Virus record (IMG/VR): IMGVR_UViG_3300002460_000039
Location: 1 to 51,292 of that record
DNA from: a virus
Reading direction: 5' to 3' (one strand)
Length of the DNA stretch: 51,292 nt
Shown: one piece after another, positions 10,046-51,288 of the stretch
Numbering within the stretch: the first letter of the stretch is position 1
How the letters are laid out: each line of letters opens with the position of its first letter
Translations under genes and position numbers: made by a program
The notes under the pieces: model-generated
Database searches by the model: none
What the model saw: only the letters and a program-made list of their open reading frames with translations
What the model was told of the DNA's origin: nothing

Positions 10046-10063
10046 GCTATATGCCTATCCTTT

Positions 10064-10231: not shown

Positions 10232-10238
10232 GTCACAT

Positions 10239-10266: not shown

Positions 10267-10288
10267 TAAAAATCTTGGGGGGTTTTGA

Positions 10289-10828: not shown

Positions 10829-10873
10829 ACTGACATGGACCCACAATAGGTGTGTGTGTGGGGGTGATAGCAA

Positions 10874-32164: not shown

Positions 32165-32836
32165 TTATTTAGGGAAATTTCTTCGACCTATCGTAAGCTC
32201 TTCGAGATAAAGAGACTGGTAGTTGGATACCGCGGCGAAAATAGCATCAGCCACATCAGACGGTTCCATCAAGAATTGGTTGTCTTGGCGAGACGTTGTC
32301 ATGTGGCTCTTGGTAGCGCCCAGGAAGACGTCTAGGACGCGTATGCCGTCTTTACGACTCTCAAGCCGTATTGCCTTCAGAAAGCCAGCCATGCCGTGTT
32401 TACTCGCAGAATACAAGGCTTCCCCGGGTGATGCGTTCCGTCCAGCCAATGAATTGATGTGAATAATAGACCCGCTTCGTCTCCACAGAAACAGGGGGAG
32501 TATTTCTTTGACCAAATAAATTGGGGCCACTAAGTTTGTAGTCACCAAATCCATCGGGTCGCTGCCCTCGTACTGCCCAGAGCTAAGTATAAGAGTATGT
32601 ATATTATACAGGTCTGCAAGTGCGACTAGTTTCTTTCGTACATTGAATAAATCCCCAATGACAACGGAGATATCTGCAGGGTCTTCACACGCCGTACGCG
32701 TCCACTCCAGTTTGGTTGCATCACGTCCCGTTATGATGACATGGCCCATAGCTGAGAATTTCTTAGCTATCTCGTGGCCAATGCTGCCACTTGCGCCCGT
32801 TATAAGTGTTGACAACCGCTCTCTTGAATTACGCAC
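32165..32836 (-). CDS. short-chain dehydrogenase/reductase (SDR)
   Basis: A 223-residue protein, last in the minus-strand operon. The NAD(P)-binding motif TGASGSIG is at residues 13-20, the catalytic triad is Ser129 (INSLAG), Tyr142 and Lys146 (YSASKHG), and the family's usual NNAG is replaced by SSGQ. SDRs in sugar clusters reduce or epimerise nucleotide-sugar carbonyls, which fits its place here. The start at GTG overlaps the upstream HTH gene by eight bases. Confidence 0.8.
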   Translation of the reverse strand: MRNSRERLSTLITGASGSIGHEIAKKFSAMGHVIITGRDATKLEWTRTACEDPADISVVIGDLFNVRKKLVALADLYNIHTLILSSGQYEGSDPMDLVTTNLVAPIYLVKEILPLFLWRRSGSIIHINSLAGRNASPGEALYSASKHGMAGFLKAIRLESRKDGIRVLDVFLGATKSHMTTSRQDNQFLMEPSDVADAIFAAVSNYQSLYLEELTIGRRNFPK

Positions 32837-33071
32837 CCGGCAATCTCGGGCGAGAGTATGTGTATGGTTTGCGGGATTGTCCTGTTAATGATTGCATTTG
32901 TGTTTTCTTTTCAAGCACTTGTGTACGCACGAACCGGTGTGACGTATATGCCTTCCGGCTAAACCGGATAGGGCTCAGTCCGACAAGTGGCGCAATGCGC
33001 CGAAATTGCCGTATGGACATGCCAGCAGTCTTGGCAGCCTCTTCGATAGTTACGAATACAGATTCATTCAT
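32829..33071 (-). CDS. excisionase-like helix-turn-helix protein
   Basis: An 80-residue protein. MNESVFVTIEEAAKTAGMSI followed by RQFRRIAPLVGL forms a MerR/excisionase-type winged HTH, with a basic C-terminus. It starts inside the stop codon of the E1 beta gene (ATGA). Excisionase-like small proteins usually bind DNA, so it may regulate this operon; an integrase partner is not in the window. Confidence 0.6.
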   Translation of the reverse strand: MNESVFVTIEEAAKTAGMSIRQFRRIAPLVGLSPIRFSRKAYTSHRFVRTQVLEKKTQMQSLTGQSRKPYTYSRPRLPGA

Positions 33072-34111
33072 TTTGTTAAATTGCCAGAAAACTGTATCAC
33101 ATTATCTGACGGCGGCAAATGCAATTCTACAAAAGATAATCCCGGAAAGTCTGGACATGGCAAGTGTAACATCTTGAAAACTTCGGATACAATACTAAAT
33201 CTTGTCGGGTAATACCCAGAAGCCAGTGCCGGTGCTGTCGGGCATGCAGTGTCTGGGCACGTGAGTGCCGCAGTTTTTATCTCGTACAGATCCAGTGCAC
33301 CGGCAATATCTCTAGCGGTACTGTAGCCTGGTGTAGATGCATCCACCACAAGAAGATACCCTGTTTTAGCCGCAGATTCTTGAATTGTTTGAGTGTCCAG
33401 CGGATACACCGACACCAAATCTATGATTTCTGCGAATATGGAACACTCTTCAAGAATATGTGCCGCTTTTAATGCTTCTAGTACCATATCCCCCACCGCA
33501 ACAATGGTGATATCCCCGCCGTAGTGCATTACACGGCATTTATCTAAAGAGACAGTTTTGGCATCCGCAGTGCCACGCAACTTATAAAGCCATCTAGATT
33601 CGAGAAAAACAACAGGATTCGGTTCTATCACAGCGGACAATAGTAGGCCTCGTGCGGTTTCTGGTGTGGCCGGTGACACGACCCGAAGTCCTGGGACAGC
33701 AAACAGCCCTTTGGCCGTCAGTGTATGTTGCGGGCCGTTCCCCCACTGCCTGCCAGTGGCAATTCGCAGTGTCAACGGACATGGGTATCCACCACCGAAC
33801 ATGTAATCCCATTTCGCCGCCTGTGTGATTATCTGGTCCATTGCATGTAATGCGAACTCTACCCTGCCATGATGAACAATCGGCCGAAGTCCAGAGATGG
33901 CCATGCCTACAGCCATTCCAGTTACTGCGTTTTCACTGCACGGGGTATCGTGTACCCTGTCTGGGAACTGCTTTGCCAGACTGCCCATGGTACCGTCAAG
34001 TCCGTTTGGGTAGGTAGCACCGAGACCGAGAACATGCACGGTATCGAACATGTTCATTGCGTCTTCCGTTGCCTGGTGTATTGCTTGTGCAAAGGTAATA
34101 ATTTCAGACAT
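33068..34111 (-). CDS. thiamine-diphosphate E1 component, beta subunit
   Basis: A 347-residue protein of the 2-oxo acid dehydrogenase E1 beta family (transketolase-like pyrimidine-binding and C-terminal domains). The segment TPCSENAVTGMAVGMAISG carries the expected thiamine-contacting glutamate (Glu60); GGYPCPLTLRIATG and VVSPATPETARGLLLSAV are typical further on, and a C-terminal transketolase domain follows (GDITIVAVGDMVLEALKA). It overlaps its alpha partner by eight bases, so the two are co-translated. No E2 or E3 gene is nearby, so the usual acyl transfer to lipoate is not evident. Confidence 0.8.
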   Translation of the reverse strand: MSEIITFAQAIHQATEDAMNMFDTVHVLGLGATYPNGLDGTMGSLAKQFPDRVHDTPCSENAVTGMAVGMAISGLRPIVHHGRVEFALHAMDQIITQAAKWDYMFGGGYPCPLTLRIATGRQWGNGPQHTLTAKGLFAVPGLRVVSPATPETARGLLLSAVIEPNPVVFLESRWLYKLRGTADAKTVSLDKCRVMHYGGDITIVAVGDMVLEALKAAHILEECSIFAEIIDLVSVYPLDTQTIQESAAKTGYLLVVDASTPGYSTARDIAGALDLYEIKTAALTCPDTACPTAPALASGYYPTRFSIVSEVFKMLHLPCPDFPGLSFVELHLPPSDNVIQFSGNLTK

Positions 34112-35081
34112 ACGGGGATGCTGTGTCTTTTGCCCTAGTAAAAACTTCCGCTATCTGCACAGTAATCTTGTCTAATATATGGTTCAGGGTGTCGCCAGAC
34201 ACCCCTCTGCTCTTTAGTTGGCACATGGTAGTTGTTATGGGATCGTGTTGCTGCCGTACATCTTCTGTGTCAATACTGCGAACACTTTCATCTTTGATTG
34301 GTCCAGAATGCGCCATGTGCCTGAAGCAAGACAAATGCAATACTACTGGCCGATTGGCTGCTGCTTGTGTCCTGGCATGCTGGGCTGCAGTGTAAACACT
34401 ACTAAAATCGTTGCCGTTCGCTTCCAAGAAATCCGCACCGAGACCGGTTACCACTTTGGACAACGAAAATCCTACAGACCTGCGCGTATGCCTTGGAGTG
34501 TTCACGGCGTAGAGATTGTCTTCAATTGCATAGATAACAGGCAACTGCATGGTTGCTGCGAGATTGATACTTTCGTAGACCGCACCCTCTTCCGAGGCCC
34601 CGTCACCTAGGAATACCACGGTAATGTTCCGGTGCTTTGATACTTTTTGTTGGAATGCGGACCCAGTGGCAATCGGAACAATACTACCGAGGATTGGTGT
34701 GCTGCCCATAAACCCAGCATCTCTATCCAGCATGTGCATTGAACCGCCTTTACCTTTGCAGCATCCATCGGTTTTGCCGTAAATCTCACATATCATTCTG
34801 TACAAGTTTCCGCCGCACGCCAAGTAATGCCCGTGAGACCGATGATTGCCAAAAACCCTATCACCCTTTTCTGTAGCCAAACATACGCCGACCGCTGCTG
34901 CTTCTTGCCCCGCCGACGAGTGATAGAATGAAAATATTTTGTTGGTTCGGAAATCTTCTGCTATGGCATTCTCCGTATGTCTTACCAGTAGCATCTTTGT
35001 GTAAGCGTCTAATAAGACAGCAGTTGGTATCACATCTTCAGCATACTCGTCTGTCACTACAGCCCGTGTACCATCACTCAT
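34104..35081 (-). CDS. thiamine-diphosphate E1 component, alpha subunit
   Basis: A 325-residue protein counted from ATG at 35081, which overlaps the upstream small gene by only eight bases; a longer start at 35129 is possible. It has the E1 alpha signature: RSHGHYLACGG, GCCKGKGGSMHML, and the thiamine-diphosphate motif GDGASEEG with the distal Asn in YESINLAA. The partner is the beta gene that follows. The pair would decarboxylate a 2-oxo acid and hold a hydroxyalkyl-thiamine intermediate; in this gene set it may donate a short acyl or acyloin unit to a sugar, which is my inference. Confidence 0.8.
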   Translation of the reverse strand: MSDGTRAVVTDEYAEDVIPTAVLLDAYTKMLLVRHTENAIAEDFRTNKIFSFYHSSAGQEAAAVGVCLATEKGDRVFGNHRSHGHYLACGGNLYRMICEIYGKTDGCCKGKGGSMHMLDRDAGFMGSTPILGSIVPIATGSAFQQKVSKHRNITVVFLGDGASEEGAVYESINLAATMQLPVIYAIEDNLYAVNTPRHTRRSVGFSLSKVVTGLGADFLEANGNDFSSVYTAAQHARTQAAANRPVVLHLSCFRHMAHSGPIKDESVRSIDTEDVRQQHDPITTTMCQLKSRGVSGDTLNHILDKITVQIAEVFTRAKDTASPYV

Positions 35082-35271
35082 CCGTGCACACAACCAGCCA
35101 GTCCGTATGAAGAACTTCACATTCCGCATTATCCAGATATACCTGGTTACCTTCTACTTTGCTCACCACTAGAATACTTTTAGATGTCAACCCACGAAAA
35201 AGTGCTGGATTACTGGTCTGCCAATCAAGTGCAAGTTTACTGAGCCGAACTCTACTACCAGGCAAAATCAT
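35074..35271 (-). CDS. small beta-barrel protein
   Basis: A 65-residue protein starting MILPGSRVRLSKLALDWQTS and ending TDWLVVCTDE. Valine-rich strands (SILVVSKVEGNQVYLDN) and an initial PGSRVRL turn suggest a small SH3- or KOW-like barrel. Such proteins in phages often bind nucleic acid or act as adaptors; here the role is unknown. It lies between the 53-residue gene and the E1 alpha gene. Confidence 0.5.
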   Translation of the reverse strand: MILPGSRVRLSKLALDWQTSNPALFRGLTSKSILVVSKVEGNQVYLDNAECEVLHTDWLVVCTDE

Positions 35272-35277
35272 TTAAAA

Positions 35278-35439
35278 CTAGCCCTCCTTCAGTATACCTA
35301 CGTTACGTAGATGGTCATCATAGGATGCCCCAGCAGATTCCATCAACTTGGATGGAGCAGTACAGAACCCGCAAACGCACCATATAACCCACCCCGGCAG
35401 AACGCTGTCCCATCCTGCAGAATCAATATCATGTGTCAT
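35278..35439 (-). CDS. 53-residue hypothetical protein
   Basis: Starts MTHDIDSAGWDSVLPGWVIW, then CVCGFCTAPSKL and ends HLRNVGILKEG. It overlaps the PhyH-methyltransferase stop by four bases (ATGA), so it is probably translated with that gene. Its CVCGFC cluster has three cysteines. No family recognised. Confidence 0.5.
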   Translation of the reverse strand: MTHDIDSAGWDSVLPGWVIWCVCGFCTAPSKLMESAGASYDDHLRNVGILKEG

Positions 35440-36806
35440 TGGAAAACTGTCCTTTTACGCATATCAATAAGCATCAACTGATGCTTTGTCGGCAGCATTA
35501 GCGGCGGAATTCCATAAAAATCACACAAGTCTCTGGCCGCAGTACCTACGTGAGGCGTATCGGTATCATCAATCAAGATAATACCAGCCGGACTGATATA
35601 CATCTTGGCTATGGCGATCTCAGAAAGAATTCCATCAGGTGAGTGGTCTCCATCAATGTGAATAAGATCTGGATTACCATATCCAGACAACGCTTCACAT
35701 ACTGCTGCCGTCTTTCGAGTATTCATAGACCATACTCTGGCATCGTCTGAGACGGGTCTAAGATTGTTCAAGGCAATTCGATTGGATGCAATACCGTCAA
35801 TTTCACCGTCTATGCCGATATATCGAGTCTCGTTTCTGCCGGACCACGCCGCTCCACACAGCAACGCCACACCAGAATACCCGTACCGCACACCAAGTTC
35901 AAGAATAAATGCAGGAACTTTGGCCGCACCCACAGCACGGTACCATGTGTAGGTGCTATCTGTATCAATCCAAGCATCTTCTGGCTGGCGTACCTGGCAA
36001 AGAATTTCTGCGTCTGTCAAGCCGTGCGTCAGTGCTTCAATACGCTCGTATGTTATTGGGAATTGGGGCTTTTTGGTGTGTACTTGTGGCACGTCCGTAC
36101 CCGAATATTCAGGTACCATATCTGTAAGATATTGCCAGTATTGTGCCGGGACCGAACCTTGAACTGTGGCTTTAGACCTACCACTCAGGGTTGTATAATC
36201 CGGCAAAAACCAGAATGTCAGAGCAACACGGCACGGCAGATTTAAATTGGAATCAACCGCATGTAAAACTCTGGCATCCAGCAGTATTGCATCTCCAGCA
36301 TTTACTGGAAGTGCTTCTTCGTTCGGGTGCTGCTTAGGCGTTTCCCAGTACTCGTAATGCCCAATTACCTCGCGCCGGTGCGAACCCGGCACATACAGCA
36401 GCGCTCCTGTATGATGTGCTGTTGTTGCATGCAGATAGCACAGTACGCCGACTTGTGGAGGTGTCTCACGGCACGTATCTGTGAAATTGTCCCAATTCCA
36501 CCAGTCAACGTGGTATGGACGACGACCTTCGTTATACCACTTCGGGACAATAACACCGAGTGCACATCTTACATCCGTGAAATGGTGTGCAGCCAGAACC
36601 CCGGCAGCTTTACGTGCGGCACGAGCAATGACTGCTGCTGACGGGTCCGCCAGACCTGCATAAGCCGTTCCATTATTCGGCTGTATGCGCTCCCACGTTG
36701 ATATGTGCGGTTCAATGTAGTCTAGTAACTCGGAAACCTCATCTGCAGAAAACACGCCCGGTACGTGTTGCACGCCGGTTGACAGAAAGTCACGGTTAAT
36801 CAACAT
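35436..36806 (-). CDS. PhyH-type dioxygenase fused to a SAM methyltransferase
   Basis: A 456-residue fusion. Residues 1-230 form a phytanoyl-CoA-hydroxylase-type Fe(II)/2-oxoglutarate oxygenase with metal ligands His99, Asp101 (PYHVDWW) and His182 (VLHAVDSN), and Arg193 as the 2-oxoglutarate anchor. Residues 290-456 are a class I methyltransferase of the Methyltransf_24 type: ILELGVRYGYSG, GIDGEIDG, LIHIDGDHSPDG and AGIILIDDTD. The pair suggests hydroxylation and methylation of the same substrate, likely a sugar or lipid-like precursor. Confidence 0.75.
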   Translation of the reverse strand: MLINRDFLSTGVQHVPGVFSADEVSELLDYIEPHISTWERIQPNNGTAYAGLADPSAAVIARAARKAAGVLAAHHFTDVRCALGVIVPKWYNEGRRPYHVDWWNWDNFTDTCRETPPQVGVLCYLHATTAHHTGALLYVPGSHRREVIGHYEYWETPKQHPNEEALPVNAGDAILLDARVLHAVDSNLNLPCRVALTFWFLPDYTTLSGRSKATVQGSVPAQYWQYLTDMVPEYSGTDVPQVHTKKPQFPITYERIEALTHGLTDAEILCQVRQPEDAWIDTDSTYTWYRAVGAAKVPAFILELGVRYGYSGVALLCGAAWSGRNETRYIGIDGEIDGIASNRIALNNLRPVSDDARVWSMNTRKTAAVCEALSGYGNPDLIHIDGDHSPDGILSEIAIAKMYISPAGIILIDDTDTPHVGTAARDLCDFYGIPPLMLPTKHQLMLIDMRKRTVFQ

Positions 36807-37467
36807 CCTGCTGTCCTGTTACCACACCGCGTGCACCTATCTGGAACAGTATTCCGCCAGAATGAGAATTTTCCATGAAGATATATGGAATGGAACCCCA
36901 ATTCCAGTGTTTGTAGAATGCCCAAAATGTACCGGCAACAACTGCCTGGTTGTGACAGTCATCCACCAGTAGCCACTCTGCACCAGAGTTTATGGCTTTC
37001 ATTACATCACGTTCCTTGTGCTGTATCTCGTGGCTGCCATCGATGTGTATTAAATCAATCTTTCCCGCTGGGTGCGCGAATACGTCTAGGTCATCACTAT
37101 CTGCTTGCAGCCAGTGTCCAGGTGTACCAGACAGTGCGGTTGCAATATCGACACCCATTTCCGCAGAGTCCACACCAAAATACTCGCAACCAGATGCAGC
37201 CATGAATGCCCTGGCACTGATACCCCAGCCGATACCAACCTCGTAGACTGTTCTCGGAAGTAATACCGCAGCTACGGCGTACTTGTTCTCACCATAGAGA
37301 ACGTGGTGTGCACCGTGTGTGCCACTGTGGATGTGCGGGTAACTATCCTTGATGCTTTGCGGGATATCTTTTCTATAATCATACCCACACGATACCTGCA
37401 CGCGCCGTATACGGTCCGCGAGTATGGCCAACTCCGCAGCAATAGTTTGCTCGTATCTTGTGCTCAC
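36796..37467 (-). CDS. class I SAM methyltransferase
   Basis: A 223-residue protein from GTG. The glycine-rich SAM motif VYEVGIGWGISARAF is near residue 75, GVDSAEMG follows, and LIHIDGSHEIQHKERDV and WLLVDDCHNQ are the Methyltransf_24-type acidic motifs, the same type as the fused domain downstream. Its 3' end overlaps the fusion gene by 11 bases. Members of this family O-methylate sugars in surface glycan clusters. Confidence 0.75.
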   Translation of the reverse strand: MSTRYEQTIAAELAILADRIRRVQVSCGYDYRKDIPQSIKDSYPHIHSGTHGAHHVLYGENKYAVAAVLLPRTVYEVGIGWGISARAFMAASGCEYFGVDSAEMGVDIATALSGTPGHWLQADSDDLDVFAHPAGKIDLIHIDGSHEIQHKERDVMKAINSGAEWLLVDDCHNQAVVAGTFWAFYKHWNWGSIPYIFMENSHSGGILFQIGARGVVTGQQDVD

Positions 37468-38499
37468 TCACTCTACCAAAAATCGTGGGTCTGTATGGCT
37501 GGAACGAAGTAGCTCAATTTTGGCGGCTATATCCGCATTTCGCATCGCCGCGTCAACAGTAATTAAATTGCGCCCAACTCCGGCAACATTAATGGGGGCC
37601 TTAATTAACGCACGAGTAATAACGTGCCTGGAGTATGCTTCCGAGTCCTCTATACCGAGTGTGCCGCACTCCGCACACCGTGCCCACTCAAACCCATTAT
37701 GAGTCAGCCTCTGCACAGGCACATCTATATGACGCCGACTATCGCGCAGTGCATTTATGAGATAAACAACACAGTTCGGGTTCGTATCTAGACTGCACAC
37801 ACTCTTGCCTATACCAGACAACTGGCTAATACCGTCGCCCGAAACCTCATCACGGCCATAGTGCCCAGACCGCTCCAGCCGTATCAGTGCTCTCGGCATT
37901 ACCTTGACATTCAATGACAGAAACTTGGCACGTGTCGATAGATCGCAGTCCACCCAATGATGGTTGACACTGGCCTCGTTCCAGCCATTAAGTCTGTTGA
38001 TAAGCATGTCCCGGCGTGCGGAGAAAAACCCGGAATGATCTAGTGCATGCCACTGCTCGACATGTGAGTCCATTTCGTAAGTCTCTTCAATATTCAGTGG
38101 CAGTTCATCCATTCGTTCGGCACGTCCCTGCCAAAGTACAACAGGGATATCTCTTGCTGCACACTCGGCAACAGCTTGCAACGCACCACTATGCATGTAT
38201 CTATGCATACCAAAGTACATAACCCAAGGACTGTTTGCCAGAAGCAGCACATTGTTGTAAAGCTCCCAATGGAGAATTCTGCCAACATGCCGAGCCTCGC
38301 ACGCCGGGGTATGCACAACTCGCTCTAATCCAAGAGACTTGCACGTGTTCGATACGAACTGTGCATTAGCATCATAGAAGGCATCCACGAAAATAAGTTC
38401 GAAATCCTGAAATGTCTGTATCGCCAGATTGCGTAGCATGAACTCCACCGGCGCAGTACCTGGATAGACATTGCAGGACAGTACAGATAGTGTTGGCAT
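37468..38499 (-). CDS. GT2-like glycosyltransferase
   Basis: A 343-residue protein. The N-terminus MPTLSVLSCNVYPGTAPV followed by LRNLAIQTFQDFELIFVDAF has the start and first nucleotide-binding strand of GT-A family-2 transferases, although the classical DxD is not obvious. The rest holds a HALDHSGFFSARRDMLI segment and a second half with cysteine pairs (CAECGTLG). It may be a divergent transferase or sugar-binding relative. It shares its stop region with the next gene by zero bases. Confidence 0.6.
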   Translation of the reverse strand: MPTLSVLSCNVYPGTAPVEFMLRNLAIQTFQDFELIFVDAFYDANAQFVSNTCKSLGLERVVHTPACEARHVGRILHWELYNNVLLLANSPWVMYFGMHRYMHSGALQAVAECAARDIPVVLWQGRAERMDELPLNIEETYEMDSHVEQWHALDHSGFFSARRDMLINRLNGWNEASVNHHWVDCDLSTRAKFLSLNVKVMPRALIRLERSGHYGRDEVSGDGISQLSGIGKSVCSLDTNPNCVVYLINALRDSRRHIDVPVQRLTHNGFEWARCAECGTLGIEDSEAYSRHVITRALIKAPINVAGVGRNLITVDAAMRNADIAAKIELLRSSHTDPRFLVE

Positions 38500-39050
38500 T
38501 ATTTTTGTTTGATCACCACTACATCATCCCAGCGGCCATTTTTGCGGAATATGTGTGCGGTACCATCTACGGCCTTTGCCAAGACATCGGCATAGCCTAC
38601 ATCCTCGATGATATACACGCCACCGTTTGATAAGTGCGGCCACAGTACCATGAAGCTTATAACCTGTGCTAGTGTGTGGTGGCACCCATCATCGATAATG
38701 ACATCAAAATTTCCACCAAATTCCACTGTCATACGAGTCAAGGCACTGTAATCGTACTGGTCGCATACCTTGCTGTGAATTCGTTCGGTATTTATAAGTG
38801 TGTCTTGGCGTATATCACAAGCAAAGATTTGCGCTTGTGGGAAGTAGTCTGCCCACATTTTCAGGCTAGCTCCGTGGACATAATTCGGTACAAGCGGCGA
38901 CATCAACTCTTCGTAACCTATGCCTATTTCCAGCAATCGCTGCACATCTCTGCCATTGAACAGCCTATCATAGAACCCGCTATCAATGTAGCTGTGCGCA
39001 AAGTACTTATCGCACGAGTATTTGATGGCCAATTCTTTAAGCACGGACAT
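38499..39050 (-). CDS. sugar O-methyltransferase-like protein
   Basis: A 183-residue protein, RLLEIGIG with GASLKMWADYFPQAQIFACD and VIIDDGCHHTLAQVISF, ending VYIIEDVGYAD. The combination of the LEIGIG motif, the aligned acidic residue after the second strand and the DDGCHH ending is that of macrolide/rhamnosyl O-methyltransferases (MycE/8-demethyl-rhamnosyl type). Such enzymes methylate sugars and need divalent metal. The start overlaps the upstream gene by 14 bases. Confidence 0.7.
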   Translation of the reverse strand: MSVLKELAIKYSCDKYFAHSYIDSGFYDRLFNGRDVQRLLEIGIGYEELMSPLVPNYVHGASLKMWADYFPQAQIFACDIRQDTLINTERIHSKVCDQYDYSALTRMTVEFGGNFDVIIDDGCHHTLAQVISFMVLWPHLSNGGVYIIEDVGYADVLAKAVDGTAHIFRKNGRWDDVVVIKQK

Positions 39051-42101: not shown

Positions 42102-42135
42102 TGTGAAAATATGCTACCACAGGTTACCAAAGTTG

Positions 42136-42465: not shown

Positions 42466-42472
42466 AAGTTAG

Positions 42473-42478
42473 ATTATA
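42473..42478 (-). promoter_or_regulatory. TATAAT box before the small fibre gene
   Basis: Read on the minus strand, a perfect TATAAT is separated from the ATG by ctaactt (7 bases). No ribosome site or -35 consensus is visible, so this is another candidate leaderless start. Confidence 0.5.
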
Positions 42479-42489
42479 CAGTCAGGCTG

Positions 42490-42804
42490 TCATGGACTGC
42501 CAGTAGTTTTGTCCTTTACGACTTGCCGCGTGGACTTCTGCCCGACTACCGCCGTTGTAGGCTTAGAAGCTACAACCTGCTTTGTACTCTTACGAAGAAC
42601 GGCAGCGGATGTTGTTTTGGACGCTACTGCCGCCCGAGTACTGGCCTTTAGTATATCCGGCAGTACAAACAGAGCAGCCACAGTCATTCGATAGAGCCCA
42701 GCAACATGCACGCGATCTAATGCACTTAGTACTAGGCCATCTGGTAACGGCAGTAAACGGGACAGCAATGCAGATGCCCTCTTGTCTCTTGTGTCTACGG
42801 CCAT
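42490..42804 (-). CDS. small protein with Lys/Ser/Thr-rich repeat tail
   Basis: A 104-residue protein that starts four bases after the giant fibre gene, with AGGAG ten bases upstream. The first part (MAVDTRDKRASALLSRLLPL, then PDGLVLSALDRVHVAGLYRM) recurs in phage tail genes. The rest is a degenerate repeat of KST/KTT elements (ASTRAAVASKTTSAAV, RKSTKQVVASKPTTAV, QKSTRQVVKDKTTG). Serine and threonine make it a potential glycan acceptor like the giant fibre. Confidence 0.55.
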   Translation of the reverse strand: MAVDTRDKRASALLSRLLPLPDGLVLSALDRVHVAGLYRMTVAALFVLPDILKASTRAAVASKTTSAAVLRKSTKQVVASKPTTAVVGQKSTRQVVKDKTTGSP

Positions 42805-42808
42805 TGCA

Positions 42809-45800
42809 TCAGACTCCTGTCCCTATTTCGTCGCGCGTGAATGTCGTGCCATCGTCAGATACGACCGCAGAATGGTCAACAGTCGTCCCGTCATCGGCAT
42901 ATATCTTGGTTTTGGATGAATTCTGAGTAAGCTTGTTGCGCCACGCCTTATAGACATAGTCAAGTTTTGTGAATGGTGTCTCAGATACTCCCGGTGCACC
43001 CTGTGCAGGTTCCGTACGGGTGGTTGTCAACACGGAGTAGACATCAGACAAAACGCCGCTCATCACAGTGATATCGGAACCCACATCCGACAAAAGCGAG
43101 TAGATGTCGCTGGCTGTGGACTGCAGGGCACTGGCGCGTCCAGCCGCCAATGTAGCAGCGGAATGTGCGTCACTAACCGCACCACTTAGAGCCACTACAC
43201 CCGAGTATGTGTCCGAGAGGATACCAGACATCACGGTAACATCGGAGTGCAGGTCTGAGAGAAGCGAATAAACATCGCTGATTGCGGACTGATTTAACAG
43301 CACTCTGCTGTTTGTTTGTTGTGCGGCAGACGCAGCATCAGATGCCAAGGACTGAATAAGAGCGGTTCTAGAAAAGATATCGCTCATCAGAGACCCAAAG
43401 CTTGATGCATCGGAGTGTGCAGTGTACTTTGCGGACCACACCCGTGATGCTATATCGGACATATCCGATGCAGTAATGGACCCGGCAGTGATTGCGGACC
43501 GGATATCAGACATTGTTGATATATCGAGAGGGACACCCGCAGTCAGCAGCGACTGAATATCTGACACTTGCGACTGATTGACCAGTACGCGAGAATTAAT
43601 CTGAACAGCTGCGGACAAGATATCCGACAAATCAGACGAGAGCGTTGCCTTCACTGCACTCGCAATATCGCTGATATCCGATGCAGATACAGTAGCCGTG
43701 ACTCCCGTAATAGCCGAACGGATATCTGACATTGTAGATGCGTCTAAGGCTACGCCAGCCCCAACAAACGATTTCAGATCACTGACTGCATCCGACATCA
43801 AATCCGAGACCTGAGAGTTGGTAGCTACCAGCTTTGGCACACGTGACTGAAAATCGCTATAAAAGTCTGACAGTATATCGGACATGGCAGTCAACATGGA
43901 ATCCACATCGGATACAGTCGATGTCATTACACGGAAAGCAGACCCAAACGATGAGACGGCATTATGTGCCCCGACACCGATGTACTTCTGCGACCACACT
44001 GCGGATGCTATATCTGAGATATCCGATGCCGTGACAGTTACAGTAGGTCCAGCCGCAATGGCCGAGCGAAGATCCGATATGGTTGATGCGTCCAGCGGAA
44101 CACCCGCGACAATCGCAGAGTACACATCACTAATACGTGATTGATTCAAAAGTACCCTGCTGTTGGCCTGTGTTGCTGCTGATGCCGCATCACTAGCAGC
44201 GGACTGTATAAGCACAGCTCGGGAGTATATATCCGACATCAAAGAGCCGAAGGAAGATGCAGCTGAATTAGCAGTATATTTTGCCGACCAGACGGCACTG
44301 GCAATATCCGAGATGTCCGATGCACTCACACTAGCGGGGAGACCGCCGATTTGAGAACGTAAATCAGAATACACATCAGATAACTGTGAGTCAGTTGCTA
44401 CCCGTTTCGGAACACGGGACTGGAAATCGCTATAGAAATCACTAAGTACATCCGACATAACAATCACCTTAGATAGGGTGTCGGATACATCGGATCTTGT
44501 TTGTAGAACACGGCTATTGATCTGCCCGGCCCGAGAGAAGATATCTGACATCATGGAACCGAAACTGGATGCTGCCGAATTAGCGGTGTATTTAGCTGCC
44601 CAGACTGCGGACGCGATATCACTGATGTCGGATGCAGAAACACTAACCGTGATGCCGCCAATTTGCGAGCGTAAATCACTGTGCATGTCAGAGAGTTGAG
44701 AATCTGTAGCGACTCTCTTCGGTACACGTGATTGAAAATCTGAATAGAAATCGGATAACACATCCGATAGTACTAAGATCCGGCTGTTCACCTGCTGTGC
44801 GTGTGACGCAGCATCCGACGCTGATGATTGAATCAAGACAACACGCGAATAGATATCCGAGAACATGGAACCAAAACTGCTGGCCGCCGAGTTTGCTGTG
44901 TACTTCGCAGCCCACACAGCGGAAGCAATATCTGAGATATCGGAAGCACTGACGCTGACTGTAATACCGCCGATTTGGGATCTCAAATCCGAATGCACAT
45001 CGCTTAATTGCGAACTGGTTGCAACCAGTTTCGGCACGCGTGAACCGAAGTCGCTCTGAAAGTCTGACAGAGCAGAATAGATATCCGATTGAATCCCACT
45101 CATTACCACTAGAAACGATGCGATATCGGAAATGCGGGACTGGTTCAAGAGAACTCGGCTATTTGCCTGTTGTGCGGCAGACGCTGCATCCGATGCAGTT
45201 GATTGAATCAGTGCCGCCCGAGAATATATGTCGGACATCATAGAACCAAAGCTGGACGCAGCAGAGTGTGCAGTGTACTTCGCTGACCAGACGGCACTTG
45301 CGATGTCGGAAATGTCAGAGGCACTGACCGATACAGTAATTCCACCAATCTGGCTTCTAAGATCGGAATGAACATCTGATAAAAGCGACTGTGTAGCCAC
45401 AGCTTTAGGCACGCGTGACTGAAAATCTGACTGCAGGTCAGATAAAGCGGAATAGATATCAGACTGTATCCCACTCATTACTACCAGGATGGATGTGATA
45501 TCCGAAATCCTCGATGCTGCCAAGTGGAAAGCCGACCCAAAGGAGGACGCAACGTTGTGGGCCGAGACACCTTTGTACTTTTGCCCCCAGACAGCCGACG
45601 CTATATCTGAAATATCGGAAGCACTAACACTGACTGGAATCCCAGCAATCTGTGATCGGAGGTCGCTATGCACATCCGACAGTTGAGAATTCGTGGCTAC
45701 CAACTTTGGAACACGACTCTGAAAATCACTATAGAAATCGGACAGGATATCCGACATAGTTGTCAGCATGGAATCGACATCGGATACGGTAGATGTCATG

Positions 45801-47359
45801 ACACGGAAAGATGAACCAAACGAGGATGCAACGTTGTGAGCACCCACGCCGATGTATTTCTGTGCCCAGACTGCCGAGGCGATGTCGGAAATGTCAGATG
45901 CCGTGATCGCGGCAGTGATTGCAGCAACAGCACTCTTGATGTCAGAGATTGCATCGCTTAGTTGAGAGTCGGTAGCGACACGCTTCGGAACTCTGGATTG
46001 AAAATCTGAGTAGAAATCCGATAGAACGTCCGACATTACCAAGATTCGGCTATTTGCCTGTTGAGCATGGGAAGCGGCATCTGACGCAGATGACTGAATC
46101 AGGACAACACGAGAGTAAATATCTGAGAATAGTGAGCCAAAGCTGCTAGCAGCAGAGTTTGCTGTGTACTTCGCAGCCCAAACGGCAGAAGCAATATCGG
46201 AAATGTCCGATGCCGAAACAGATGCTGTTATGCCGCCAATCTGAGACCGCAGGTCGGAGTGGACATCCGACAACTGTGAATCAGTAGCCACCCGTTTTGG
46301 GACACGTGACTGGAAATCGGAATAGAAATCCGATAGAACATCCGACATGATTAGAATACGGCTGTTGGCCTGCTGTGCATAAGATGCGGCATCGGAAGCT
46401 GCCGATTGGATCAGCACCACCCTGGAGTAGATATCCGAGAACAGCGAACCGAAACTGCTAGCTGCGGAGTGGGTTGTGTATTTCGCGGCCCACACTGCAG
46501 ATGCGATATCGGATATATCTGACGCACTGACTGAAGCCGTAATCCCAGCAATTTGAGATCTCAGGTCACTATGAACATCTGACAGTTGTGAGTCCGTAGC
46601 TACACGTTTTGGCACTCTAGACTGAAAATCTGAATAAAAGTCGGACAACACGTCTGACATGGCTAAGATTCTGCTATTAGCCTGCTGAGCGTGAGAAGCT
46701 GCGTCGGAAGCCGAAGACTGGATCACGACTACGCGGGAGTAGATATCTGAAAATAGTGAACCGAAACTGGATGCAGCTGAATGCGCCGTATATTTGGCGG
46801 ACCAGACACGCGATGCTATATCGCTCATGTCCGATGCAGAGACACTAACTGGGATAGCTACAACAGCACTATAAACATCGCTAAGTATGCCCGACATCAC
46901 TATCAAGTCCGAGTGCATATCGCTGACATCGGACCGGATATCAGACACAACACCGGACAGGTTACTGGCCATGTTCGAGAGGTAGCTCAGAACGTTGGAG
47001 ACATAGCTGCCATCGGCACGTTCGCCTTCAAGGATCAGTGTCTGGTAAGCAGCCCCGGTTGCAGACAGGCTAATAATATAAGTATCGTAGAACGCAGCCG
47101 ACGCATCCGATATATCAGCCTTGGCAAGAGCGATATGGTATATGCCGAGAGCCGATGCTCCAACATGTGTTATAGCAGCAGTCAATGACCCTGTACCGGA
47201 AGTAATAAAATTGGTTCCAGTTGCCGAACGCAACTGACCGTACACCTTGATCTTTGTTGCGGCAGATAGTGCACTCTCCGGCGTAGCGAAGTCAGCACTA
47301 TCCACCATCATCCAGTTGATGTGGTTGTTCGTCCGGCCTTGATAGATTTTCTGCGCCAT
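42809..47359 (-). CDS. giant Ser/Asp-rich repeat fibre
   Basis: A 1516-residue protein. The first 110 residues are a BppU-type Ig module (NHINWMMVDSADFATPESAL, then LGIYHIALAKADISDASAAF). Residues about 174-1440 consist of some twelve modules of about 105 residues, each with a core SDIASAVWxxKYTxxS-type segment, ASSFGS, SDIYSR, a QQANSR loop, SDVLSDFYSDFQSRVPK and SQLSDVHSDLRSQI. Ser-Asp steps every four or seven residues imply a long trimeric coiled coil. Ser is about 23 percent of a module by my count. The C-terminal 70 residues (FTKLDYVYKAWRNKLTQNSS, then TDEIGTG-type ending) are a common phage fibre end. A GGTGAG ribosome site precedes the ATG. Confidence 0.75.
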   Translation of the reverse strand: MAQKIYQGRTNNHINWMMVDSADFATPESALSAATKIKVYGQLRSATGTNFITSGTGSLTAAITHVGASALGIYHIALAKADISDASAAFYDTYIISLSATGAAYQTLILEGERADGSYVSNVLSYLSNMASNLSGVVSDIRSDVSDMHSDLIVMSGILSDVYSAVVAIPVSVSASDMSDIASRVWSAKYTAHSAASSFGSLFSDIYSRVVVIQSSASDAASHAQQANSRILAMSDVLSDFYSDFQSRVPKRVATDSQLSDVHSDLRSQIAGITASVSASDISDIASAVWAAKYTTHSAASSFGSLFSDIYSRVVLIQSAASDAASYAQQANSRILIMSDVLSDFYSDFQSRVPKRVATDSQLSDVHSDLRSQIGGITASVSASDISDIASAVWAAKYTANSAASSFGSLFSDIYSRVVLIQSSASDAASHAQQANSRILVMSDVLSDFYSDFQSRVPKRVATDSQLSDAISDIKSAVAAITAAITASDISDIASAVWAQKYIGVGAHNVASSFGSSFRVMTSTVSDVDSMLTTMSDILSDFYSDFQSRVPKLVATNSQLSDVHSDLRSQIAGIPVSVSASDISDIASAVWGQKYKGVSAHNVASSFGSAFHLAASRISDITSILVVMSGIQSDIYSALSDLQSDFQSRVPKAVATQSLLSDVHSDLRSQIGGITVSVSASDISDIASAVWSAKYTAHSAASSFGSMMSDIYSRAALIQSTASDAASAAQQANSRVLLNQSRISDIASFLVVMSGIQSDIYSALSDFQSDFGSRVPKLVATSSQLSDVHSDLRSQIGGITVSVSASDISDIASAVWAAKYTANSAASSFGSMFSDIYSRVVLIQSSASDAASHAQQVNSRILVLSDVLSDFYSDFQSRVPKRVATDSQLSDMHSDLRSQIGGITVSVSASDISDIASAVWAAKYTANSAASSFGSMMSDIFSRAGQINSRVLQTRSDVSDTLSKVIVMSDVLSDFYSDFQSRVPKRVATDSQLSDVYSDLRSQIGGLPASVSASDISDIASAVWSAKYTANSAASSFGSLMSDIYSRAVLIQSAASDAASAATQANSRVLLNQSRISDVYSAIVAGVPLDASTISDLRSAIAAGPTVTVTASDISDIASAVWSQKYIGVGAHNAVSSFGSAFRVMTSTVSDVDSMLTAMSDILSDFYSDFQSRVPKLVATNSQVSDLMSDAVSDLKSFVGAGVALDASTMSDIRSAITGVTATVSASDISDIASAVKATLSSDLSDILSAAVQINSRVLVNQSQVSDIQSLLTAGVPLDISTMSDIRSAITAGSITASDMSDIASRVWSAKYTAHSDASSFGSLMSDIFSRTALIQSLASDAASAAQQTNSRVLLNQSAISDVYSLLSDLHSDVTVMSGILSDTYSGVVALSGAVSDAHSAATLAAGRASALQSTASDIYSLLSDVGSDITVMSGVLSDVYSVLTTTRTEPAQGAPGVSETPFTKLDYVYKAWRNKLTQNSSKTKIYADDGTTVDHSAVVSDDGTTFTRDEIGTGV
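43030..46840 (-). repeat. tandem protein repeats of the giant fibre (about 12 modules)
   Basis: Modules recur about every 315 bases. Two types appear: one with AKYTANSAASSFGS, another with QKYIGVGAHNVASSFGS (fourth, fifth and tenth modules); the eleventh is degenerate (SAVKATLSSDLSD). Protein identity is high, while the codons differ between copies, for instance SDISDIASAVW is written differently in almost every module. Confidence 0.8.
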
Positions 47360-47962
47360 TTAGCTCACCACAAATATCAGACCTTCTGCCGTCAAGGGCT
47401 TCCCGCCGTACCAGTAGAACTCGTCTATCTTGAAATTATATCTCTCTACCAGTATCTTGAGTGTATGGTAGCTGTACCACGCAACATGATCATTATTTAC
47501 TTGCTCATATCCGTACCGTAGCCATGAGCGCCCGCCTTCAGCAAGCGCATTAGGTACAGTGATCAACAGAGGTGTTTTCAACTGCCTCAGGGTATGAAGA
47601 AAATGACCTGGATTGGCTAAGTGTTCTATAATCTCCCCAGCAACAATAAGATCCGGGTAAGGCAAGTTTTTAGAAACAATATCGCCATAAATAACATGGG
47701 GTTGCATGTCAACATCAATCTGAATATCCGCAGTGTTAAGAGCCCTATCCACGCCAATCACGTATTTAGCTACAGACTTGATTCTAGAATGTAGATGCCC
47801 TGACGCACAGCCGATGTTTAATACATTCTTGTCTCGGCAATGTGAAACTATAAAATCAATGCGGTCTTCTACGACAGCAGCAGCTGGCACCGGGTGCATC
47901 ATTTTTCTGCAGTAGTCAGTGCCCTGGCGACCTTCAATACCGCGAAGTTCGAACGGCGTCAT
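47360..47962 (-). CDS. SAM methyltransferase (Methyltransf_11/23 type)
   Basis: About 200 residues from ATG at 47962; the frame is open to 48061 but the extra residues are unusual, while TATAAT ends six bases before this ATG. NVLNIGCASGHLHSRIKS is the SAM-binding motif, GVDRALNTADIQIDV the second strand and VAGEIIEHLANPGHFL the helix with the usual EHL; LLITVPNALA is the post-motif strand. Phage and polysaccharide loci use such enzymes for O-methylation. It starts the fibre/glycan side of the minus block just before the giant fibre gene. Confidence 0.7.
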   Translation of the reverse strand: MTPFELRGIEGRQGTDYCRKMMHPVPAAAVVEDRIDFIVSHCRDKNVLNIGCASGHLHSRIKSVAKYVIGVDRALNTADIQIDVDMQPHVIYGDIVSKNLPYPDLIVAGEIIEHLANPGHFLHTLRQLKTPLLITVPNALAEGGRSWLRYGYEQVNNDHVAWYSYHTLKILVERYNFKIDEFYWYGGKPLTAEGLIFVVS

Positions 47963-47968
47963 GCAACA

Positions 47969-47974
47969 ATTATA
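47969..47974 (-). promoter_or_regulatory. TATAAT box before the methyltransferase gene
   Basis: On the minus strand TATAAT is separated from the ATG at 47962 by tgttgc (6 bases). There is no ribosome site, which supports the shorter start and suggests a leaderless transcript. Confidence 0.45.
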
Positions 47975-48129
47975 AATATCTTCCACTACGCTGCTACTCT
48001 CTTGTGCACACACGACAACGAAGCCGCTGTCGCATCCAATTTTAAACCGTAGCCACTGCAAAGCCGTAGACGCACCCCGACCAGAACTAAAACCACTTCA
48101 ATAAACGTTTCGGGTTCTAGATGCGTACT

Positions 48130-48306
48130 TTAAATGGTTCTCGGCTTGGCAATCCTTCGTGGCTGCAGATTATCGTGAATCCTGTGCAACATTGGCGTCA
48201 GGTTGATGCCGTTTATCTCTACACCACCGGCAATTTTAAGCTGAATCCATTTAACAAACGCTTCATACTCAGCAGTTGAGCAGTGCAATTTAAATGTATT
48301 TTTCAT
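48130..48306 (-). CDS. 58-residue hypothetical protein
   Basis: Starts MKNTFKLHCSTAEYEAFVKW and continues QLKIAGGVEINGINLTPML. A short alpha/beta protein without recognised family. It lies between the glycosyltransferase and methyltransferase genes; the 21 bases before it hold no obvious ribosome site. Confidence 0.5.
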   Translation of the reverse strand: MKNTFKLHCSTAEYEAFVKWIQLKIAGGVEINGINLTPMLHRIHDNLQPRRIAKPRTI

Positions 48307-48327
48307 AGATAGCCACGTTCCGCATAT

Positions 48328-49257
48328 CTAGATGTATCTCTGGTAGATTTCAACGGACTGTCGAACTGTATCCTCAACATTATGCCTTTCTTCAGCCCAC
48401 TTGCGGTAGTCTATTTTATCGTAGTTCTCCCAGCAGTTGATAATTGCATCTGCTATAGAATCCGGGTCCATATCACAAGTCCACGGATAGTCATCATATT
48501 CGCGGTAACCTGGACCAATAAACGCCTTGCCTGCACCGAACGCCTCTATACCTCTGGCATATAGCGGATACAGACCACTCACAAGCATATCAACTTTGTT
48601 GTAGAGCATGTTGATATCCTCCTGAGCGCCTTGAAGTGTTCTAATAAATGTCCACCACTTATTATTTTTAATGAGTGCATCAAAGGCACCGTGCATCTTC
48701 TTGTCTGTGCAGTTGTATAGATGCAGTCGTGCATTAGGAAACTTCTTGTGCACCTTCTCCATTGCCACACAGAGGTAGAGCGGATTGCGCGAGCCTCTCC
48801 AGTTTTCTGCGTATAGAACTGCTGGCTCACCGGATAGTCTCTCTACAACTTCCGGTATTTTATGGAAGCGCTCTAAATCTACACCCTTACGCACAAGGTG
48901 GGTTTTCTTGATAGTTGACCATATAGGCCACTCTTGTCGGCGCATGCAGATGAAGGCATCAATCTTTGGTGCCAAATCCACAATGGCTTTCATCGAAATA
49001 CCATTACCGACAGACGAGAGCGGTTCACCGTGCATCCACATTAACTTCGGTTTCCTATCGGCATAGGCGTCGATATTCAACTGAGAGTGCACGGCATGAA
49101 CATCACAGTCACCATTCACGCGGCCATAGATAGGCATACTCTCGGACGGCTGACGAACACCTACATGATGCCCTTGACGCTCCTCGTATTTGGCAAGCTC
49201 TAGCGTTGACCACGCTAAACCAGATGATTCGCGCCTTAACCAGTGTAGGATACGCAA
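48328..49257 (-). CDS. glycosyltransferase, GT4-like
   Basis: A 309-residue protein from TTG (MRILHWLRRESSGLAW). The GT-B layout is indicated by an N-terminal domain with AVHSQLNIDAYADRKPKL and a C-terminal domain with LYAENWRGSRNPLYLCV and YARGIEAFGAGKAFIGPGYR, in which GIEAFGAGKAFI is the donor-binding E-x-x-G-type region. It is shorter than most GT4 enzymes. It lies beside the giant fibre genes, separate from the main sugar operon, and may be the first transferase that touches the fibre. Confidence 0.65.
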   Translation of the reverse strand: MRILHWLRRESSGLAWSTLELAKYEERQGHHVGVRQPSESMPIYGRVNGDCDVHAVHSQLNIDAYADRKPKLMWMHGEPLSSVGNGISMKAIVDLAPKIDAFICMRRQEWPIWSTIKKTHLVRKGVDLERFHKIPEVVERLSGEPAVLYAENWRGSRNPLYLCVAMEKVHKKFPNARLHLYNCTDKKMHGAFDALIKNNKWWTFIRTLQGAQEDINMLYNKVDMLVSGLYPLYARGIEAFGAGKAFIGPGYREYDDYPWTCDMDPDSIADAIINCWENYDKIDYRKWAEERHNVEDTVRQSVEIYQRYI

Positions 49258-49865
49258 TAGTACCTCCGTTGTTTCTTACGATTGTCTGACGCCCAGAGTG
49301 GCTGTAGATTCTGCAGTGACCAGCATTCTTTAAATGAGGAGTCACTCATTTATCTAAACTCAAACGTTGCAATCGGTCGAATGTGGTCAATCTCCCATTG
49401 ACCGTAATTGTCCCAGTTCATCCCATCGGCAAACTGTGCTTCCAGATGGGCCATTAGTTCAGTGACATTATACCCCACTACATATTCCCACGACATCCGT
49501 TGCTTGTTACGTTTCAGCGCATAATACATTCGACTCTTCATATTCCGCGAAATGCGGGATCTTGGAGGAACTGGAATATGCTTACGCCGATGGTAAGACA
49601 ACCGGTTTAGTTCGTTTGTTCTTTCGCGGTTCGCTTCGCGCCACCGGGCGGAAATCGCATATACCGATAACCGGTTCGCAATTCGATATAGTTTCTGTGC
49701 TTCTCGAATACGTTCACGGTTTTGTTGGTAGTAGGTTTTCTGGCACGTTCTGCAAGTATTGGCAAGCCCATCTTTCTTCTGTGCATCTTTTGCGAAACAC
49801 GTCAACACCTTGAACTGTCTGCACTTTCCGCACTTCTTCGATAGATTCAAACAGGCATCCTCCAC
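49236..49865 (-). pseudogene. HNH endonuclease interrupted by an in-frame TAA
   Basis: The first 171 residues (from GTG) hold a zinc finger (CGKCRQFKVLTCF, CRTCQK), basic coils and the first half of an HNH core ending WEIDHIRPIATFEFR. A TAA codon then occurs (49352-49350), but the same frame continues with MSDSSFKECWSLQNLQPLW and ASDNRKK, which is the expected second half of the HNH motif. The ATG after the TAA could reinitiate. It is either a decayed homing endonuclease, a split gene or a readthrough case. The start overlaps the beta-helix gene end by 19 bases. Confidence 0.75.
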
Positions 49866-50854
49866 CCCATTCCGATCTCAATACCAAGTGGATTGGATCG
49901 CGTATTTCGTGTAATACCTGCACGTACCGCATCAAAGCCGATGTCCCACGCATTTCCAAACAACTGTCTGTCAATATCATCATCGAACGCATAGGTGACA
50001 TCACCGCTCAAATCGATACCGAAGCCTTTCGCGCCAGCGTCGGCAGCGGCGAGGTGGTAGTCGAATCCGGCTGCGTTGACGAATGTGAATGTCTGGCTTG
50101 TGCGCGGAGAGGTGCCAAGCGCGGTAGTGTCTTCGGAGGCGTTGTTGCTGCCGGAGTCGATGGAGCCGCTAAAGTCACCGCCAACGTTAGACGCGCCCAG
50201 GCAATTTACCAGCGCAATGGTGGCATTTGCCCCACAATCAAAACCCTGCGCGCCATTTCCAGCGACGGTCGTATTGTAGATGACCGGAGCGACGCTAGCG
50301 GTGCTTGCAATTCTAATTCCGTCGTTTTCGTTGCCCTCGCTGATGCAGTCGATCACAAAATGACGGTTGGTCGCACCTGCGGCGCTGTTGATACCGATAT
50401 TAGCACCGGTTCCAGCGTTCTGTGAATTCGTGAGAATACAGCCGACAAGCGCAGCGTCCGTACAAGCCGTCGAAAAGTTGACGGCAACGCGGCTTGTTAC
50501 AGAATTCTGAGTCGTTCGCGCACAGACGTCCTGCACCTGGTCGAATTCGTCCAGAAATGTAATGGTGGTTCCATCCGCCGTAGAATAAAAACGAACCCCC
50601 GTATCACGGATGCCGGTATGAAAGTTGCCCGGTTTCGGGCGAAGTATCCTGAAATAAGTTGCGTTGTTTACTGCACTACTCAGCGAAATGGAGTCGTCGT
50701 ACTGTGCCGCAAGGCACTCCAGCACCGGCGATATTTGCGCCGTAACATTGTCGTTGTCGGTGTCGGCTTCCCATGTGGCGAGGAGGACATAGTCTTGGCC
50801 AGCGCCGTAGGTCGATATTGATTCGTTGGTTCCGACGCGACGTGCGGATGGCAT
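49847..50854 (-). CDS. right-handed beta-helix protein
   Basis: A 335-residue protein from the ATG at 50854, which overlaps the upstream stop by one base (TAATG). N-terminal residues 1-110 are a beta-rich head (ESISTYGAGQDYVLLATWEA); residues 120-250 hold short beta-helix turns (NRHFVIDCISEGNENDGIRI, VIYNTTVAGNGAQGFDC) and the end (FVNAAGFDYHLAAADAGAKG, DIDRQLFGNAWDIGFDAV) resembles the end of the 21643-23517 protein. It has no signal peptide. Possible tailspike or head-fibre part. Local codons look more G+C-rich than those of the fibre genes, which hints at a separate origin. Confidence 0.55.
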   Translation of the reverse strand: MPSARRVGTNESISTYGAGQDYVLLATWEADTDNDNVTAQISPVLECLAAQYDDSISLSSAVNNATYFRILRPKPGNFHTGIRDTGVRFYSTADGTTITFLDEFDQVQDVCARTTQNSVTSRVAVNFSTACTDAALVGCILTNSQNAGTGANIGINSAAGATNRHFVIDCISEGNENDGIRIASTASVAPVIYNTTVAGNGAQGFDCGANATIALVNCLGASNVGGDFSGSIDSGSNNASEDTTALGTSPRTSQTFTFVNAAGFDYHLAAADAGAKGFGIDLSGDVTYAFDDDIDRQLFGNAWDIGFDAVRAGITRNTRSNPLGIEIGMGWRMPV

Positions 50855-51288
50855 TAGATGTAGCCTCCGGTCTGCTTGTCCCAGACCAAGCCGTGAACGT
50901 TGAATGGACGTTCCGAGCAAATGAATCGGAACGGTGGATCTTCGTCCACGCCGAGAAATGGCTGGTACTTGTCGGCTAGGTCGCGCGCGCGTGCGACGTT
51001 AAACGACGGAACCACCTGCGCCAGTCTATCAAGCGGGATGCAGTAGCGTCGCTTGTCGTGGCCCTCAATCGGATCGGTGAGCCGCGCCATCTCGTTCTCT
51101 TCGAGTCCTTCGATTCGCAGCCACAGGTAGCCGGACTGCTCCAGTCGGCCAACAGCTTGAGCCGGACGGCGAATCGCGATGATGTCGCCGACGCACTTGC
51201 GCTCCTTCGTACCTCCCGTGTGCGTGCCGCCGTGCTCGCAACTGATCGCGATTTCCATCACCGGGTAGTTGTGGTTGGTGTAACCCAT
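50854..51288 (-). CDS. hypothetical structural-type protein near the window edge
   Basis: A 144-residue frame from ATG at 51288, four bases from the window edge, so a longer N-terminus cannot be excluded. It starts MGYTNHNYPVMEIAIS and contains CEHGG, KRRYCIPLDRLAQVVPSFNV and a polar tail. The KRRYCIPLDRL segment and its place before a beta-helix gene suggest a phage virion or baseplate protein, but no family is certain. Confidence 0.45.
   Translation of the reverse strand: MGYTNHNYPVMEIAISCEHGGTHTGGTKERKCVGDIIAIRRPAQAVGRLEQSGYLWLRIEGLEENEMARLTDPIEGHDKRRYCIPLDRLAQVVPSFNVARARDLADKYQPFLGVDEDPPFRFICSERPFNVHGLVWDKQTGGYI

Follow-up and report, generated by a model that had tools for sequence, protein, structure and literature searches.

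A serine-rich coiled-coil fibre encoded beside a glycosyltransferase and a methyltransferase: a candidate fibre-decoration cassette in tailed phages, adjoining a separable glycan operon

Introduction

What does a phage do with a very long, serine-rich repeat fibre encoded next to a run of glycosyltransferase (GT) and methyltransferase (MT) genes, and how many of those enzymes act on it? The question is raised by IMGVR_UViG_3300002460_000039, a linear IMG/VR record of 51,292 bases (the whole of which was analysed and is called the window), where such a block occupies the minus strand from position 32165 to the contig end. An earlier, sequence-only reading took the block to be a single operon that builds a modified sugar and attaches it to the fibre. 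We instead consider it probable that two modules stand side by side: a fibre-decoration cassette (42136-49257) and a separable glycan operon (32165-42101; ‘module 2’). To our knowledge, few examples have been described of phage virions whose proteins carry sugars, and the precedent that we cite below concerns capsids, where the acceptor proposed here is a fibre. The cassette is also a compact, testable unit, of one GT, one MT and one acceptor, in which the acceptor sites can be predicted from heptad position. Its genes are as follows (locus labels beginning with L or G are our own).

48328-49257, minus strand: fibre-linked glycosyltransferase (GT48328), GT-B fold, GT4-like, 309 amino acids (aa); relatives 53-66% identical in 16 phage lineages
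47360-48061, minus strand: S-adenosylmethionine-dependent methyltransferase (Methyltransf_23; MT47360), second gene of the cassette; PF13489, E=4.6e-15; relatives 38-49% identical, between GT and fibre
42809-47359, minus strand: Ser-rich coiled-coil repeat fibre, 1516 aa, called from composition, repeats, register and relatives
42490-42804, minus strand: small gene after the fibre, 104 aa; weak relatives (32-44%) after the fibre in L159/L160, L161/L175, L173 and L174
42136-42465, minus strand: small beta-rich protein, last gene of the cassette; a 57% identical gene follows the fibre in L166

Serine placement in the fibre

The fibre open reading frame (ORF) is, as first described, rich in both Ser (312 of 1516 residues, 20.6%) and Asp (9.0%), and holds eleven repeat units, most of 93-125 aa (around 100 aa), with Ser spacings that recur at 3, 4 and 7. 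The heptad register was called from hydrophobicity with Ser masked, such that Ser was not used in the assignment. On this register the Ser share is 59% at f and 39% at b, as against 6% at each of a and d and a null of 19-20% (sd 0.01) from shuffled sequences; for the window fibre alone, the values are 70% at f and 1% at a. Ser thus occupies the outward positions of the coiled coil, f and b, and avoids the core. Thr, Gln and Asn do not share this preference, each making up just 1-2% of f positions.

Among the best-conserved repeat units, protein identity is 85-91%, with third codon positions that are near random (0.29-0.43 identical), and it follows from this pairing of high protein identity with saturated synonymous sites that the residues of the fibre, Ser included, are strongly constrained. 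Moreover, 9 of the 20 invariant Ser columns use both TCN and AGY codons, indicating that it is Ser itself that is kept. We note in passing that synonymous sites across 42809-47359 are saturated as though the repeat DNA had been selected to differ.

A cassette shared by otherwise unrelated phages

Queried at full length, the fibre found no match in IMG/VR; an alignment of five of its internal repeats did find relatives, at 12 loci. Where upstream sequence was available, homologues of GT48328 (55-65% identity) and MT47360 (41-50%) lay directly upstream of the Ser-rich gene. Searching IMG/VR in the reverse direction, with the GT family as the only query, returned 22 loci, which reduce to 16 lineages once near-identical contigs are merged (L169/L170 and L173 being merged at 88%). 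One lineage ends at the GT; in the remaining 15, which could be scored for downstream genes, a Ser-rich fibre (14.4-19.0% Ser, 487-1148 aa) adjoins the GT in every case and at least one MT is present in every case. By way of background, only 1 of 254 viral ORFs of at least 250 aa reaches 14% Ser. As eight of the 15 lineages came solely from the GT query and were absent from the Ser-seeded set, the linkage is no artefact of how the set was constructed.

The cassette, found in at least 16 phage lineages (all metagenome-only), sits in varied surroundings: flank proteins are common to only 9 of 136 locus pairs, the flanks being otherwise unrelated, and the capsid protein of the window is in none of the 17 searched records that carry the fibre-linked GT. 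Within the cassette, the GT and the fibre N-terminus co-diverge (Mantel r 0.54, with 0 of 2000 permutations as high). A variant clade (L164, L167 and L168) has both a different fibre family and a different MT, yet its fibre is again Ser-rich and heptad-spaced; it carries an additional gene of no recognised family, which, from an HDD motif, is possibly a second glycosyltransferase. This conserved extra gene, without a Pfam match, lies at L167:4601-5164, L168:6930-7505, L164:6924-7490 and L177:8605-9330. Taken together, the recurrent adjacency of fibre, GT and MT in at least 15 other lineages suggests a rod that is sugar-coated.

As to the individual genes, GT48328 has no Pfam match of its own at E <= 0.01 (its relatives match PF13692/PF00534), no PHROG match and zero matches among 50,697 phage records; INPHARED likewise gave no match to the fibre, its N-terminus, its C-terminus or its repeat. 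MT47360 is probably a sugar O-methyltransferase. The 42490-42804 gene appears to be kept in some cassettes; it is also the best candidate for the second Ser/Thr-rich protein claimed by the sequence-only reading, which its composition (10% Ser, 11% Thr) does not bear out. The product of 42136-42465 resembles phage baseplate N-terminal domains, judged by eye only.

A second, separable module

Module 2 is best described alongside G002 (IMGVR_UViG_3300046543_000521), a phage record whose capsid protein is 67% identical to that of the window, and L037, a locus at which part of the same gene set recurs. It includes a pair of E1-type thiamine diphosphate (ThDP) enzymes and a short-chain dehydrogenase/reductase (SDR); percentages are identities to the counterpart genes.

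40215-42101, minus strand: FkbM methyltransferase-GT4 glycosyltransferase fusion, first gene of the operon; TIGR01444 3e-18, PF00534 and PHROG matches; 54% in G002
39037-40224, minus strand: GT9-like (heptosyltransferase-like) glycosyltransferase, tentative, from a weak fold match; 68% in G002
38499-39050, minus strand: methyltransferase; phrog_21658 1e-19, under the Pfam cut-off; 48% in G002
37468-38499, minus strand: GT2-like glycosyltransferase, tentative; hhalign against a GT2 alignment, probability 66%, E 5.6e-5; 39% in G002
36796-37467, minus strand: methyltransferase; PF13649 2e-5, under the cut-off
35436-36806, minus strand: PhyH oxygenase-methyltransferase fusion; PF05721 4e-11, PF13578 9e-11
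34104-35129, minus strand: ThDP enzyme E1 alpha; PF00676 2e-61; 63% in G002, 53% in L037
33068-34111, minus strand: ThDP enzyme E1 beta; PF02779/PF02780; 59% in G002, 56% in L037
32165-32836, minus strand: SDR, closing the operon and facing the lysis genes convergently; PF00106 4e-28; 39% in G002

Much of the enzyme inventory drawn up earlier stands: the PhyH oxygenase, E1 pair and SDR all have clear Pfam matches, and the five MT domains are present (the FkbM N-terminus of 40215, MT47360, 36796, 38499 and the C-terminus of 35436, with 36796 and 38499 falling under the Pfam cut-off). The four glycosyltransferases are on less even ground, in that 40215 is identified directly by Pfam and PHROG, and the other three, whose own sequences match nothing in Pfam at E <= 0.01, are identified via relatives (GT48328), via a GT2 profile (37468) and via a low-confidence GT9-like fold (39037, whose model, at a predicted local distance difference test score (pLDDT) of 48, matches WaaF, WaaC and TibC). 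To speak of a full glycan-building gene set was an overstatement, as the scanned genes of the block included no recognisable nucleotidyltransferase, dehydratase or flippase; and, whilst the genes do share one strand, their overlap is partial, with gaps of 231 and 306 bp. The E1 pair is intact, scores under the pyruvate dehydrogenase (PDH) equivalog cut-offs and has no E2 or E3 among the scanned genes beside it. In L002-L004, relatives of 36796 are found close to capsid genes; in L037 the relative adjoins E1. We take module 2 to be a sugar-modification operon, resembling nucleotide-sugar clusters of cyanophages and Patescibacteria.

In G002 the core genes of the operon keep this order and once more converge on tail-side genes. 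The record has no relative of GT48328, no ORF across its 49.8 kb to match the Ser-richness of the fibre and no full-length relative of the PhyH-MT fusion. Conversely, E1 alpha is in 0 of the 17 searched records bearing the fibre-linked GT. Judged from gene content, neither cassette nor operon would require the other.

In a third phage, L037, MT, E1 alpha, E1 beta and SDR lie directly ahead of tail genes (the run at L037:487-3778, among tail genes, is E1 alpha, then a small ORF of no assigned function, then E1 beta and SDR). For the E1 genes, a first search of genome contigs was empty and a four-sequence alignment query succeeded: around two dozen of 80 bacterial relatives, mainly Patescibacteria, have the order ZnADH-E1-E1 (ZnADH being a zinc-dependent alcohol dehydrogenase), in many cases then PfkB. 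In L039, ZnADH-E1-E1-PfkB is accompanied by genes of cupin, HAD and nucleotidyltransferase-like type (assigned by eye and from inter-locus matches). In G010 (L141:530-2482), the site of the E1 pair is occupied by a split transketolase (by eye), with a PfkB kinase after it. In the cyanophages P-TIM68 and S-SM2, a ZnADH gene adjoins a transketolase-like gene, together with genes for a sugar kinase, a nucleotidyltransferase and a phosphoheptose isomerase. In two unrelated phages, at L144 (S-CBS4; 6472-11454) and L033:6374-11401, the portal gene is followed within a few genes by one for a GT4 enzyme. A proposed kinship to marine phage loci with FkbM only (L012-L031) was dropped, the similarity being confined to weak FkbM or GT matches.

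Genome context and assembly

The record is probably a genome fragment, its contig stopping at 51292. The late region is siphovirus-like and on the plus strand, and neither a terminase nor a portal gene was noticed among the window genes. The genes recognised in this region include:

5014-6864, plus strand: putative protease
6869-7300, plus strand: decoration protein
7306-8298, plus strand: major capsid protein
from 14097, plus strand: major tail protein
16372-21015, plus strand: tape measure
31606-32163, plus strand: endolysin

The block, from 32165 to the contig end, is on the minus strand, the two modules adjoining one another. The fibre repeats are a potential site of misassembly; since the gene order GT-MT-fibre-42490-42136 is recovered piecewise across the repeats in relatives, the assembly of the window is supported as far as 42136. 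Where the cassette meets module 2, at around 42.1 kb, the join is backed by this contig alone.

Two further features of the window were observed. The major-tail-protein genes at 14097-14525 and 14582-15004 are related neighbours (73% DNA identity over 74 nt), as compared with a single match apiece in the relatives L002-L005. HNH/endonuclease-like genes are dispersed through the late region (3247-4388, 8407-9153 and 13092-13964), with another, at 49350-49865, inside the minus-strand block.

A proposed model and its alternatives

We propose that GT48328 most likely draws on a host nucleotide-sugar to glycosylate Ser residues of the fibre in the cytoplasm, before assembly, and that MT47360 would then methylate, or ‘cap’, the bound sugar; both steps are suggested by gene linkage and fibre anatomy. 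With Ser at the outward f and b positions, the sugars would line the rod as a ‘stripe’ or ‘brush’, and the coated rod may be incorporated into the virion as an appendage. Candidate roles for such a coat include a shield against proteases or antibodies, host-glycan mimicry and adhesion, between which sequence cannot discriminate. In module 2, the E1 pair and SDR may put a two-carbon branch on a host-supplied keto-sugar and then reduce it, with the glycosyltransferases acting on the host envelope, on another virion protein or possibly on the fibre glycan. We lean, if only modestly, towards a modular tailed-phage cassette (a Ser-outward rod, GT4-like hyperglycosylation and a methyl cap) that moves as a unit between unrelated phages and would place a methylated-glycan brush on the virion. 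Were this true, phages would make sugar-coated rods much like the glycosylated adhesins of bacteria, and the placement of Ser in a coiled coil would be tied to a dedicated modifying enzyme.

Several points weigh against this proposal. While gene linkage, Ser placement by register, repeat constraint and module separability are demonstrated, we infer the chemistry, the acceptor residues and virion incorporation. The AlphaFold single-chain model of the fibre is helical at low confidence (pLDDT 35) and was discarded, which leaves periodicity of the sequence and predicted helix as the sole basis for the coiled coil. The GT search used short conserved peptide patterns and may favour close relatives, and every relative of the cassette is a metagenomic fragment without a known host, with none in the phage isolate collection. 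A Ser-poor, GT-less fibre relative to serve as a negative control was not found: a made-up Ser-poor probe had no phage match, and no Ser-poor relative with at least two repeat motifs was among the loci gathered. For a host clue, six bacterial genomes were searched with the GT family; the result was empty and carries no power.

It is conceivable that the Ser stripe has a purely structural role, keeping the outside of the coiled coil soluble, and that GT48328 and MT47360 modify another target; residues that are small and polar are, after all, compatible with the f and b positions of an unmodified coiled coil. Yet such an explanation sits poorly with the scarcity of Thr, Gln and Asn at f, with the use of both Ser codon families at invariant columns and with a GT-fibre linkage that holds in 15 of 15 lineages, across unrelated flanks and two fibre families, and we think it unlikely. 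The view of the sequence-only reading, that the entire enzyme set of 32165-49257 is one pathway making an elaborate sugar for the fibre, draws on the adjacency of the modules on a single strand and on the fibre-42490-42136 order in relatives, which backs the assembly through the repeats. Since G002 carries the operon core with neither a Ser-rich protein nor GT48328, an outcome that the sequence-only reading had itself named as refuting, we reject it, and the lack of E1 alpha from all 17 records with a fibre-linked GT points the same way; a single pathway thus seems improbable. What survives of the original idea, that an operon decorates the fibre, is the part proposed for GT48328 and MT47360, which are conserved beside Ser-rich fibres whose Ser face outwards; the linkage held for these two, in otherwise unrelated phages, and failed for E1 alpha, and assigning the whole operon to the fibre is not supported.

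For module 2 itself, the chances are a little under even that its target is the host envelope (lipopolysaccharide (LPS), O-antigen or capsule), remodelled in the course of infection (as a bar to superinfection, for instance), with no involvement of the virion. The nearest cellular relatives of the E1 pair lie in the ZnADH-E1-E1-PfkB clusters of Patescibacteria, with sugar genes nearby, and the ZnADH/transketolase-like clusters of P-TIM68 and S-SM2 include sugar-activating genes; such genes have been interpreted as LPS modification (PMC9602691). Set against this, neither a flippase nor a membrane glycosyltransferase was seen in the block, and the position of the E1-SDR set among tail genes in L037, together with that of glycosyltransferases after the portal gene in G002 and S-CBS4, hints at late, virion-related expression.

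Comparison with known systems

Phage O-antigen conversion cassettes have the form gtrA-gtrB-gtr, with a flippase (GtrA) and a bactoprenol glucosyltransferase (GtrB); neither the GtrA nor the GtrB family is among the Pfam matches for the block. The P-TIM68 and S-SM2 clusters, in which a ZnADH gene stands beside a ThDP enzyme gene together with sugar-activating genes and glycosyltransferases, resemble module 2 and differ in that module 2 is without a kinase or nucleotidyltransferase and belongs to another type of phage.

E1-type ThDP enzymes (AviB1/AviB2, Pau11/Pau12, KbDH-alpha/beta; alpha-KADH2) add two-carbon branches to sugars, which are sometimes then reduced (PMC4753412, PMC12247030). The module 2 pair is like them in that E1 alpha and E1 beta are paired, in a sugar context and apart from any PDH complex; it differs in that its closest gene order is ZnADH-E1-E1-PfkB, with a split transketolase in G010. 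As to a reductase, an SDR adjoins the E1 pair in the window, in L037 and, following a cupin gene, in G002; the ketoreductase of the literature, Pau7, is an aldo-keto reductase. The hallmark reaction of the alpha-KADH2 enzymes is the passing of an acetaldehyde unit from pyruvate to a keto-sugar.

The serine-rich repeat (SRR) adhesins of Gram-positive bacteria (GtfA/GtfB, SecA2/SecY2) likewise comprise a long, Ser-rich surface protein with dedicated glycosyltransferases alongside (PMC6973325), and with 312 Ser (20.6%) the fibre is itself a very Ser-rich repeat protein. The analogy, drawn already by the sequence-only reading, is one of function and goes no further: SRR adhesins have alternating-Ser repeats of 10-20 aa, whereas the fibre is a heptad coiled coil with repeats of around 100 aa; the genes here are those of a phage, with one GT and an MT; GtfA/GtfB models (NCBIfam) match neither the window enzymes nor the GT48328 family; and Pfam finds no SecA2/SecY2/Asp export genes among the genes of 32165-51288. 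TibA/TibC and AIDA-I offer a second likeness, in that a single glycosyltransferase modifies many Ser, and not Thr, of a repetitive surface protein (PMC4358343). TibC is GT9-heptosyltransferase-like, whereas GT48328 is GT4-like, and there is no autotransporter here; nor does a TibC/GT9-type enzyme stand beside the candidate acceptor in the window, 39037 being GT9-like by weak fold only and not fibre-linked. By analogy, then, the cassette would work like the SRR adhesin and TibA/TibC systems whilst belonging to neither.

The closest known phage phenomenon is the virion glycosylation of mycobacteriophages Che8 and Rita, for which, in an account citing Freeman et al. 2023 (PMC11256854), phage-encoded glycosyltransferases are proposed to modify virion proteins, the target being the major capsid protein. 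The cassette described here differs in pairing a Ser-striped fibre with an adjacent GT and MT.

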